A stretch of DNA of 41,855 nucleotides from Treponema sp. (GTDB lineage: Bacteria > Spirochaetota > Spirochaetia > Treponematales > Breznakiellaceae), in contig JAITHE010000137.1 of the NCBI GenBank assembly GCA_031280125.1, positions 1 to 41,855 on the forward strand, written 5' to 3'. Position numbers and translations under genes: made by a program. The first letter of the stretch is position 1, and each line of letters opens with the position of its first letter. The notes below the pieces were generated by a model that ran no database searches, had not been told where the DNA came from, and was given only the letters and a program-made list of their open reading frames with translations. This document shows, in pieces, positions 36,780-41,735 of the stretch.

Positions 36780-38171
36780 GTGTCCGTAACCAAAGAAATT
36801 ACCCGCCTGGCACATTCGGCGGTCAAGTTGACCCTTACAGTGGGAAAGGACGATGTCCGTACCCAGTACGATGATCTTATCAGGGATTATACCAAAACCC
36901 TGGCCATTCCCGGATTCCGCAGGGGAAAGGTTCCCCGGGATGTGCTGGAACGGAAATTCGGGGCGGCTCTTAAAGATGAGGCGGTCAACAAGATCCTGGG
37001 AAAAACCATTTCGGAGGTGTTTGAAGACGAGGGGTTTCCCAGAGAAGACAAACCCCTGCCCTATTCCACCCCCCGGGTAGAGGACGAGCCGGTCCTTGAA
37101 TTCGGCAGGGATCTCCGGTTTTCCGTGGTTTACGACGTGCTTCCCCGGATAACCGTGGGCCCATGGAAAGGGCTGGAAGCGGAGATTCCCGACGTATCCG
37201 TTTCGGAAGAAGATGTTTCCCGGGAACTGGAAGAGATCCGGGACCGAAACGCCGTTGTCCTGGACAGAGAGGATACAGCGGAAGCGGCCAGGGACGACGT
37301 GGTTACGATTAGTTACTGGGAACTGGACGGCGAAGGCAGCCCTGTCAAGGGGACTGAACGGCAGGATTTTGTCTTTACCCTGGGTTCCGGTTACAATCTC
37401 TACCAGTTCGACGACAACATTCTGGGGATGAAAAAGGGCGAAACCAGGGATATCACCAAAACCTTTCCCGCCGGTTATACCCACAGCGATCTGGCGGGAA
37501 AAACCCTTACCATCCGGGTTACCCTCACCGCCCTCAAGGAAAAGAAACTTCCCGTCCTGGACGATGAACTTGCCCAGGATGTGGACGAAAAGTACCATAC
37601 CCTGGAGGACCTGAAAAACAGCATCCGGGACCGGCTTGGCGCACATCTGGAAAAGAGGCTTCGGGATATTACCGTATCCCGGCTTCTGGAGCAGGTTTTA
37701 GAAACCACCCCCATGGATCTTCCCGAGTCGATGATCGATCTGGAACTGGATTCTCGGCTGCGGAACCTAGCCCGGCGTTTTAACGTAGCCCCCGGCGAAC
37801 TGGCGCGGCGTCTGGCCGAAGAAGAGGGGGCGGCGGAATCCGGCCCGCCGGGGATACCGGAAAAACTCCGGGAAGAATGGCGGGGAGACGCCGAAAGGGC
37901 CCTTAAAAGCCGGCTCATCGTGGAAACCTTGATGCGGGACCTCAAGCTGGAAGCCTCCGGTGAAGAAATAGAAAGGGAAATAGAAAACCAGGCCGCCTCG
38001 TCGGGGACGGCCCTGGAGGAAATAAAAAAATACTACGATCAGGAAAATGCCAGGGAATACCTGGAGGAAGAGATCAAAGAACGGAAACTGTTTGATCTTT
38101 TTATAGCGGAAAACCGGATCAAAAAAGGCAAGCAGGAGCGGTATCTGGACCTTATGTCCGGTAACGGATAA
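36780..38171 (+). CDS. tig: Trigger factor
   Basis: Ribosome-bound chaperone with peptidyl-prolyl isomerase activity. The 463 residues contain the ribosome-docking signature in [14 protein letters not shown] (about 44-56), an FKBP-type PPIase domain (around 160-245, ending [19 protein letters not shown] without its last part) and a long helical C-terminal domain ([13 protein letters not shown] onward). Length is slightly above the usual 430-450. It starts with GTG at 36780, with GAGG 7 nt upstream. Follows tRNA-Leu by 52 nt and heads the protease block. Confidence 0.96.
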
Positions 38172-38193
38172 AATAGGCAAGGCGGGAGAAACC

Positions 38194-38779
38194 ATGAGCA
38201 ATATCCTTCCCCATGTGGTTGAACATACCGGTGTGGGTGAACGGTACTACGATATCTATTCCAGGCTCCTTTCGGACAGGATCATTTTCCTGGATGGGGA
38301 CATTATGGACCTTAATGCGGATCTTGTGGTGGCCCAAATCCTCTACCTGGACGGACAAAATACCGAAAAGGACATTAACCTTTACATCAATTCCCCCGGC
38401 GGCTCGGTAACCGCAGGGCTGGCCATCTACGACACGATCCGGTACGTCAAGTCCAGCGTCCAAACGATCTGCCTGGGCCAGGCGGCCAGTATGGCCGCGC
38501 TGATCCTCTGCGCCGGGGCGCCGGGAAAGCGGCTGGTCCTCCCCTCTTCCCGGGTGCTGATCCATCAGCCCTGGGGCGGGGCCCAGGGACAGGCCAGGGA
38601 CATAGGTATCCAAGCCAGGGAAATCCTCCGGCTTAAAAGCATTGCCATCAAGGGCTTTGCCCTGCATACCGGCAAGGAACCCGCCCAGATTGCCGCCGAC
38701 ATGGAACGGGATTTTTTCATGTCCGCCGAAGAAGCGGTGGCCTACGGAATAGCGGACAAGGTGCTTACCAGGGAAGACC

Positions 38780-38796
<17 letters not shown>
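38194..38796 (+). CDS. clpP: ATP-dependent Clp protease proteolytic subunit
   Basis: Serine protease barrel that degrades proteins unfolded by ClpX. The 200 residues have the full catalytic triad: S99 in [14 protein letters not shown]124 in VLIHQPWGG and D173 in [12 protein letters not shown]. The oxyanion/strand motif YINSPGGSV is intact. ATG at 38194 has GGGAG upstream; it starts 22 nt after tig, and its end overlaps clpX by 17 nt, an unusually tight coupling. Confidence 0.97.
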
Positions 38797-40033
<1,237 letters not shown>

Positions 40034-40038
40034 ACCCC

Positions 40039-40078
40039 GCAATCCGGCGCAGCCCGCAATCTGGCTGCACCGGATTGC
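40039..40078. repeat. Palindrome 1 after clpX
   Basis: 16-nt arms (40039-40054 and 40063-40078) pair with a single mismatch around an 8-nt loop. Only 5 nt after the clpX stop; no T-run follows. It may still stop or stabilise the clpX transcript. Confidence 0.8.
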
Positions 40079-40080
40079 TC

Positions 40081-40145
40081 TGGAGTTTTGTCCCTCTCTG
40101 GACTACGCCATGCCACATAACCGGACGGGAAGGGACAAAACTCCA
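40081..40145. repeat. Palindrome 2 between clpX and the FGE-domain lipoprotein
   Basis: Perfect 15-bp arms TGGAGTTTTGTCCCT (40081-40095) and its complement (40131-40145) around 35 nt. The 33 nt from 40082 match 41545-41577 at 25 positions, so the unit is repeated on the other side of the lipoprotein gene. Confidence 0.85.
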
Positions 40146-40146
40146 A

Positions 40147-40175
40147 CGCCATAAAACGCTCTGCGTTTTATGGCG
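40147..40175. repeat. Palindrome 3, over the stop codon of the FGE-domain lipoprotein
   Basis: Perfect 13-bp arms CGCCATAAAACGC (40147-40159) and its complement (40163-40175) with a TCT loop. The last two sense codons and stop (40168-40170) of the minus-strand lipoprotein lie in one arm. Hairpins just after the variable region are a known feature of diversity-generating retroelement targets. Confidence 0.85.
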
Positions 40176-40290
40176 CAACCACCCGGAACCCCAGATGGAC
40201 GCTCCCGTTACGCGGGGTGTGGTTGTACCGATAAGAGACCGTGCAGGCGCCCGCATTGTAGGCACAACCGCCGCCCCGTACCACACGGAC
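40168..40290 (-). other. Candidate DGR variable region
   Basis: Last 40 codons of the FGE-domain lipoprotein. The fixed residues of the FGE fold (RGG, C, R, P, GFR) remain, while positions that are Asn (AAC/AAT) in typical template repeats read TAC, GGC, GCC, TAT, TAC, CAC, ACC, CGT, GTC and CAT, each reachable from AAC/AAT by changes at A only. A hairpin lies directly downstream. No template repeat or reverse transcriptase is present in the window, so this is inference. Confidence 0.5.
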
Positions 40291-41238
40291 CGTACCCGAA
40301 GCGGGTCCCGCCGGAGCGCCGGCCCATACCGGATCCGTTACCGCGGTGGTGTCAACGGAATCTGTATTCCAGTCCCAGCACCATTCCCACACGTTCCCGC
40401 TCATGTCAAAAAGGCCCGCCCCGTTGGCAGTCTTGGTCCCCACCGGATGCACCCCGTACTCCTTACTGGTATCCACCGGAAACGACCACGCATTGGGAGC
40501 ATACCAGGCGTAACTGCCTAACTCCCCCTCGGTGTCGGTTCCCGCATAGGTATAGCTCCACGCCGCAGCAGCGGTGTTTCCCCCCCGGGCCGCATACTCC
40601 CACTCCGCCTCCGTCGGCAGCCGGTACCCGTTGGCCCCGCCCTTCACCACCGCCGTATCCGCCGCCGTCGTGGTTCCGCTGTCATTCGTCGATGTCTTCA
40701 ACACCGTGGTATAGCCGGCATCGGTGTAGTACACCGGCTCCTTCCCGCTCATCTCGCTGTAGGCGTTGCACCGCACAACAGCGTCCCGCCAGCTTATCTC
40801 CGTTACCGGACGGCTCTTCTTCTCCGCCCCCGTCCACTCATTGCTGTCGGTCCCCTTCCCTTCATCGGTGTCTCCCGCAGAGGGATACCCCTCTTTCCCC
40901 GCATTGGCAAAGGTATACCCGCGCCCTATGGCCCAGTCGTACACCTCCTTCCACAACTCATAGGTGGTCTCGTACTTCGCCATCCTAAAGGGGCTTAGGG
41001 TTACGCTGCGGTTGTAGACAAATACACCGTGGTCATAACTTGTGCCGGTAATGCTGGAATCAGTGCTACCGGGGACGGCCCCCCCGGCAAGGCTCACCGT
41101 CTCCCGGTACTTCTCCGGGGTGGCAAAGACAATGCCGGGATCATCGCCGCCGCCACAGCCGCCCAGGGCCGTCGCGGACGCCGCCAGCAGCCCCGCGGCA
41201 CAGACCCCCCGCAGCCCCCTTTTCGTTTCGTTCTTCAT
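40168..41238 (-). CDS. Lipoprotein with FGE-sulfatase (C-type lectin fold) domain; candidate DGR target
   Basis: Exported and probably surface-facing. The 356 residues have a signal peptide ending ALGGC (lipobox, C near 28), then an FGE-sulfatase domain (about 70-356): FRMAKYETTYELWKEVYDWA, KSRPVTEISWRDAVVRCNAYSE, GYRLPTEAEWEYAARGG, GLFDMSGNVWEWCWDW, and the final VRVVRGGG...SYRY...LGFRVVAP. FGE-like lipoproteins of this form (TvpA in T. denticola) are targets of diversity-generating retroelements, with variation in exactly this C-terminal part. It is unlikely to be a true sulfatase activator, since it is a lipoprotein and the C-terminus is strongly diverged (GGC where the family has GSW). 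ATG at 41238 has AAGGAG 7 nt upstream. It sits alone between palindrome mosaics, opposite to clpX. Confidence 0.88.
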   Translation of the reverse strand: MKNETKRGLRGVCAAGLLAASATALGGCGGGDDPGIVFATPEKYRETVSLAGGAVPGSTDSSITGTSYDHGVFVYNRSVTLSPFRMAKYETTYELWKEVYDWAIGRGYTFANAGKEGYPSAGDTDEGKGTDSNEWTGAEKKSRPVTEISWRDAVVRCNAYSEMSGKEPVYYTDAGYTTVLKTSTNDSGTTTAADTAVVKGGANGYRLPTEAEWEYAARGGNTAAAAWSYTYAGTDTEGELGSYAWYAPNAWSFPVDTSKEYGVHPVGTKTANGAGLFDMSGNVWEWCWDWNTDSVDTTAVTDPVWAGAPAGPASGTVRVVRGGGCAYNAGACTVSYRYNHTPRNGSVHLGFRVVAP

Positions 41239-41474: not shown

Positions 41475-41712
41475 CCCGCACTTCGGCTGCGCCGAAGTGC
41501 TTGGCAGTTGTGCCTGCGGCAAAACTGCACGGGCATATACGGCTGGAGTTGTGCCCCTCTTCGGTTTACGCCCCGCCCTGTAAGCAAGCGGGAAGGGTGC
41601 TCTCCGCCTGCGGCGGAGAGCTTAGGAGAGTGTGCCTTGCCCAATCTCCACGGCATAAACCGGCATGGAGTTTCACCTGCGGCGAAACTCCCCCTGTGGT
41701 GAGTGCAATCAT
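41452..41712. mobile_element. Hairpin-rich segment with 20-bp terminal inverted repeats (MITE-like or rearrangement product)
   Basis: 41452-41471 and 41693-41712 are inverted copies with 19 of 20 matches; GGA stands directly outside both ends and could be a 3-bp target duplication. No transposase is encoded. The inverted ends derive from the repeated gene tails, so a rearrangement rather than transposition is equally possible. Confidence 0.45.
41478..41691. repeat. Series of four hairpins with TGC loops
   Basis: 41478-41500 (10-bp perfect), 41504-41528 (11 bp, one mismatch), 41599-41621 (10-bp perfect) and 41667-41691 (11 bp, one mismatch). The arms differ in sequence, but each loop is TGC, and three of the four centres read CCTGCGG. 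Between them, 41545-41577 matches 40082-40114, and the word CGGTTTAYGCC recurs on the opposite strand at about 41651-41661. Confidence 0.85.
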
Positions 41713-41735
41713 GGAATGATGGCACTCACCACAGG
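41693..41735. repeat. Palindrome over the end of the last gene
   Basis: Perfect 14-bp arms CCTGTGGTGAGTGC (41693-41706) and its complement (41722-41735). The stop codon of the minus-strand gene (41709-41711) lies in the loop, and its last codons lie in one arm. Confidence 0.85.

Follow-up and report, generated by a model that had tools for sequence, protein, structure and literature searches.

A probable remote target of a diversity-generating retroelement in a Treponema genome, with two palindromes at and after its stop codon

Introduction

The window analyzed here, a stretch of 41,855 nucleotides that forms contig C21 (JAITHE010000137.1) of a Treponema sp. assembly (GCA_031280125.1, genome G000), carries near one end a lipoprotein gene with a palindrome on its stop codon. 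A first-pass annotation proposed this gene as a remote or relict target of a diversity-generating retroelement (DGR). The locus raises the question of whether the genome holds a DGR with a reverse transcriptase (RT) and a template repeat (TR) matching the variable region (VR) of the gene, and what the palindromes at its end may contribute. Genome G000 comprises 2.43 Mb in 172 contigs (77% complete, 4% contamination); as it is incomplete, the count of targets given below is a lower bound. For comparison with the DGR and the TvpA family of T. denticola, we used Le Coq & Ghosh (2011) and Nimkulrat et al. (2016, PMC4891356).

Results

An FGE-type lipoprotein gene in a chromosomal setting

40168 to 41238, minus strand: probable DGR target gene, encoding a 356-aa FGE-type (C-type-lectin fold family) lipoprotein with ATG start (ORF list, translation and Pfam)
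41155 to 41238, minus strand: signal peptide with lipobox-like LGGC (residues 25-28; Cys28), from the translation

The Pfam FGE-sulfatase domain spans residues 45-354 of the product (E 2e-39), and among solved structures T. denticola TvpA (variable protein 1; 2Y3C, E 1.3e-30) is the nearest; the protein aligns to it by sequence through the VR, which lies at the 3' end of the gene. An AlphaFold model, based on an alignment of 14 rows, was poor (pLDDT 49); residues 224-356, and the VR with them, scored below 50. Lipoboxes of spirochaetes are relaxed, and the lipobox together with the homology to TvpA suggests that the lipoprotein may be displayed on the cell surface and contribute to surface variation. 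FGE-type genes are multi-copy in G000 (11 domain matches). The window copy adjoins tig, clpP and clpX (36780-40033), which indicates a chromosomal setting; upstream of it lies an inverted repeat of 20 nt (95% complementary, 3-nt loop; window 41693-41735).

A DGR cassette on contig C12

The genome contains a single RVT_1 match, located on contig C12, where the order in gene direction is FGE-type target (truncated by the end of the contig), HRDC gene, RT gene and TR. The RT (360 aa; RVT_1 E 5e-20) carries the motifs IGNVTSQ and YMDD, the former corresponding to the [ILV]GxxxSQ motif that is a hallmark of DGR-type RTs, and thus the enzyme for which the first-pass annotation had suggested searching the genome is present. 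The profile libraries searched returned no DGR-specific model for this RT. The accessory HRDC gene (domain E 1e-18) overlaps the RT gene by 26 bp.

C12:16498 to 16630, minus strand: TR, a repeat of the 3' end of the C12 target, with an ungapped 133-bp match to the window VR

The repeat was assigned as the TR because every one of the 20 positions at which the C12 target departs from it is a template adenine (20/20 mismatches). It contains 13 AAC/AAT codons, and within the cassette IMH and IMH* are distinct, with GAGTT in the VR and GAGCC in the TR. A recurrent donor/recipient difference of this kind after the last variable base, AGC(T/C)C in the TR and AG(T/G)TC or similar in the VR, was seen at one spot in this RT clade (L002 and most of L034-L080) and is a candidate clade-wide IMH*/IMH mark.

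The TR overlaps the last ~100 bases of the RT ORF at its 3' end (locus L002, C12:16487-16630). In many related DGRs (loci L034, L045, L052, L058, L064, L065, L068 and L073) the TR lies partly or wholly inside the open RT ORF, so that the RTs concerned may end in tails translated from the TR in a different frame. A group II intron was found directly downstream of the TR in an Opitutia DGR (L072:7514-8122). In at least six Treponema-like genomes, cassettes have their target upstream of the RT, with the TR located at the RT end or beyond it. The nearest named relatives of the C12 RT belong to Treponema and Spirochaetes MAGs, whose isolate codes look like those of insect-gut samples; no paper on DGRs in termite-gut Treponema was found in the literature searched.

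The window VR differs from the TR at template adenines

40178 to 40310, minus strand: VR, ungapped 133-bp match to the C12 TR, with 25 mismatches, 22 of them at TR adenines (p=4e-12)
40178 to 40193, minus strand: VR 3' end beyond the last template A (IMH side), shared without change by C21, C81 and C69, with one T>G relative to the TR

The mismatches affect 22/38 template A, 0/35 C, 1/39 G and 2/21 T positions (A versus others, 22/38 vs 3/95), and the template adenines are changed to G (10 cases), T (7) and C (5). Ten of the 13 template Asn codons are altered in the window gene, exclusively at the first or second base, while the third base is kept in 13/13. The FGE-sulfatase lipoprotein with a variable end at Asn positions was thus correctly recognized in the first-pass annotation, and the concentration of mismatches at A is what it had predicted for a matching TR; the repeat was, however, misplaced and extends from 40178 to 40310 rather than from 40168 to 40290. 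The VR leaves the TR by the T>G after GGTTCC and then again from the stop region onward. This T>G near the 3' end is one of three non-A mismatches and recurs in each of the four non-cassette copies. The remaining two are found in the window copy alone: TGG->TGT, which turns the Trp of the conserved RGGSW into Cys, and a T>A forming part of an Ile->Tyr change. The window target also lacks AG(T/G)TC near its stop, which most cassette VRs of the RT clade carry, and may for this reason be a poor recipient.

Besides the window, VRs of the same TR were found at four further loci (C12, C81, C69 and C98). Mismatches fall at template A in 18/21 cases in the C81 VR, in 20/22 in that of C69, which has acquired a nonsense codon (TGC->TGA), and in 25/37 in the drifting, divergent copy on C98 (p<1e-8 for each). 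C161 holds a decayed copy with indels and a damaged H1 hairpin (see below), and the C12 and C69 contigs end inside the target gene. C21 and C69 have common alleles at TR positions 20-31, which include five A's, and different ones at most later A's; their non-A VR sites differ at 3/95 positions, against 16% upstream of the VR (p=0.001). A weaker difference of this type separates C21 and C81 (4/95 vs 11%, p=0.06). The C21/C69 pattern would fit rewriting of the VR from its 3' side after gene duplication. Relatives of the window gene were also observed in genomes where an RT was not found (G006, G008) or was present as a contig-end fragment only (G030; L104-L106), comparable to T. denticola strains with targets but without RT.

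Two palindromes follow the VR

40147 to 40175, minus strand: H1, perfect 13-bp palindrome (palindrome search), arms 40147-40159 / 40163-40175, loop AGA, holding the stop TAA (40168-40170)
40082 to 40144, minus strand: H2, palindrome with 14-bp arms (40082-40095 / 40131-40144) and a 35-nt head, the same in C81 and with one base different in C69

H1, which had already been noted as a palindrome overlapping the stop codon, is the one 13-bp hairpin with a 3-6 nt loop in the window, compared to none in 40 dinucleotide-preserving shuffles of the whole window. Its exact pattern occurs three times in G000 (C21, C81 and C69), each time at a VR end, and a reversed control gave no match. A block of ~113 bp, running from the last variable base through H2, is the same in C21 and C81 apart from the 3-nt H1 loop (AGA vs GCC), whereas the two loci are ~85% identical upstream of the block and their similarity ends directly after H2; the C69 block contains one further base difference. 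C98 has other palindromes at the corresponding place. A third palindrome, at window 40039-40078 (GCAATCCGGCGCAGCC / GGCTGCACCGGATTGC), lies directly after clpX and is absent from C81 and C69.

Hairpins of different sequence were found at equivalent positions elsewhere. Six remote targets in genome G003 have a common but different long-stem triloop hairpin after the VR (loop TCT), and one G030 target has a long-stem hairpin with the loop AAA. In a comparison of 37 DGR loci with related RTs, a structure z<-2 was reached in 20/37 by the 120 nt following the VR, compared to 0/36 for the 120 nt before the VR (mean z -2.3 after the VR, -1.0 after the TR and +0.2 before the VR). Searches of the DGR loci against Rfam at the gathering threshold returned only tRNA, cobalamin riboswitch and group II intron matches and nothing credible at the window end. 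The H1/H2 sequence had no match in viral contigs, whose FGE-type proteins are at most 48% identical.

Other structures were observed in the course of this comparison. A hairpin of 52 nt, whose 3x3 internal loops are mostly GNA/GNA, lies directly after FGE genes at G003:C129:1410-1461, G003:C57:11133-11184, G006:C399:5367-5418 and G018:C36:21323-21374; the last of these is a fourth match, found with a model built from three copies, which gave one other, weak match in 59 genomes. Identity of the window H2 with this hairpin of other genera was rejected, since the model (R1) has no match in G000 and the 3' flank in the window lacks a GNA/GNA loop. In Kiritimatiellia/Verrucomicrobia-type DGRs (L049, L054, L072, L076), a three-way-junction-like structure after the cassette VR shows compensatory changes (both partners altered in 9/21 pairs, 98.8% of cells paired), based on four sequences only.

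Discussion

The distribution of mismatches strongly suggests that the window gene is a trans target of the DGR whose RT, HRDC gene and TR reside on C12 of the same genome, to which we assign a probability of about 0.92. The target is called remote because RT and TR are on C12 and the window is C21, and in this respect the proposal that DGR targets may be located far from the RT holds for this genome, as it does for the dispersed targets of T. denticola. According to the standard DGR mechanism, TR RNA would be copied by an error-prone RT with misincorporation opposite A, and the mutated cDNA would replace the 3' end of the FGE-type lipoprotein gene, so that residues at template Asn positions change and the scaffold stays intact. 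We infer that homing occurs in trans, and this copy may still be rewritten at present. Situated at the stop codon and just behind it, the two palindromes probably serve as homing-recipient elements and would mark the locus as a recipient, like the hairpin/cruciform of Bordetella phage BPP-1.

Divergence of ordinary paralogues under diversifying selection, without any DGR, could be considered as FGE-type genes are multi-copy, but is next to impossible to reconcile with 22/25 mismatches to a separate copy beside the RT falling at A and with Asn codons never changed at their third base. It is also very improbable that C21 and C12 stem from different organisms joined by binning, in which case the DGR would not act on the window gene: the assembly has 4% contamination, and contig breaks inside the target gene, such as those of C12 and C69, can arise at repeats in mixed assemblies; however, five loci match the same TR, and in a set of 59 genomes not even the closest relatives hold a target of nearly this similarity (best 74%). 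A more serious possibility, to which we nevertheless give less than even odds, is that rewriting of the VR belongs to the past and that the copy, having ceased to be a recipient, now evolves like any other gene. The two private non-A changes, one of them replacing the conserved Trp, the missing AG(T/G)TC and the decayed siblings (the C69 nonsense codon, the C161 indels) point in this direction. On the other hand, the ORF of 356 aa is intact, only 3/95 non-A sites are mismatched and the palindromes are intact and conserved in sequence relative to C81 and C69. Of the original 'remote or relict' proposal, the 'remote' part is supported, and the copy may in addition be a relict: the ORF is intact and non-A sites look homogenised, yet two private non-A changes are present.

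With respect to the palindromes, H1 and H2 could be transcription terminators, perhaps bidirectional, that are unrelated to homing. They are situated at a gene end between convergent genes, and a terminator scan placed a weak terminator-like site at 40178-40161, with one H1 arm forming part of it. We regard this as rather unlikely, as neither H1 nor H2 is followed by a T-run, the block travels with the target to C81 and C69 while the flanks differ, and it is conserved in sequence beyond what pairing alone demands; in addition, the remote targets of another genus (G003, TCT) and the G030 target (AAA) have different long-stem triloop hairpins after the VR.

An inverted repeat or cruciform downstream of the VR is needed for homing in a subset of DGRs. 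In BPP-1, a structure downstream of the VR is required for efficient homing, and it is the stem structure rather than the stem sequence that matters (Guo et al., 2011, PMC3240598). The window locus resembles BPP-1 in that a C-type-lectin-fold gene carries an A-specific VR at its 3' end and a palindrome on the stop codon directly behind it. In BPP-1 and other phage DGRs, however, the stems are GC-rich, 7-10 bp long and capped by 4-nt GRNA loops (PMC3240598), whereas H1 has a 13-bp stem with an AT-rich middle and a 3-nt loop that varies between copies; a second, longer palindrome follows the first, unlike in BPP-1, and the accessory gene encodes HRDC instead of Avd. A hairpin following the VR of TvpA, as stated in the first-pass annotation, was not confirmed in the literature searched.

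In T. denticola, FGE-type lipoproteins are the targets of one TR/RT, with 2-7 dispersed targets per genome, some of them truncated or over-mutated (Nimkulrat et al., 2016, PMC4891356). The system described here shares the FGE lipoprotein targets, several dispersed targets per TR/RT and the HRDC gene overlapping the RT gene, and TvpA is its best solved relative. However, the TR is located between target and accessory gene in T. denticola (target-TR-HRDC-RT) and after the RT, overlapping its 3' end, on C12 (target-HRDC-RT-TR). Owing to this difference in order, we classify the system as a DGR with Tvp-like targets and not as of the T. denticola type; the C12 layout corresponds to 'group 3' of Schillinger et al. 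(2012, PMC3521204). Targets away from RT and TR are also known from Thiohalocapsa PB-PSB1 (PMC10907252), where diversification was observed in natural populations and some loci are best explained in trans, whereas the present system is known from one assembly; the targets there are putative conflict-system sensors and not FGE lipoproteins.

The window gene thus is a new, well-supported case of a known system, far-away targets being already known in the oral relative T. denticola, and multi-target DGRs on FGE lipoproteins extend beyond this species to other Treponema relatives, and in some of these the FGE-type genes number a dozen or more. Large metagenome surveys miss remote targets and so could not address recipient marks (PMC8144416); H1 and H2 provide specific candidates for the sequences by which a remote gene is marked as a DGR recipient. 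Tentatively, and at less than even odds, the VR end, H1 and H2 may form a portable recipient module, so that the single TR/RT could rewrite in trans any FGE copy ending in it, even one that lacks the AG(T/G)TC of the cassette target. If so, structure and not flanking homology would define which genes are targets.
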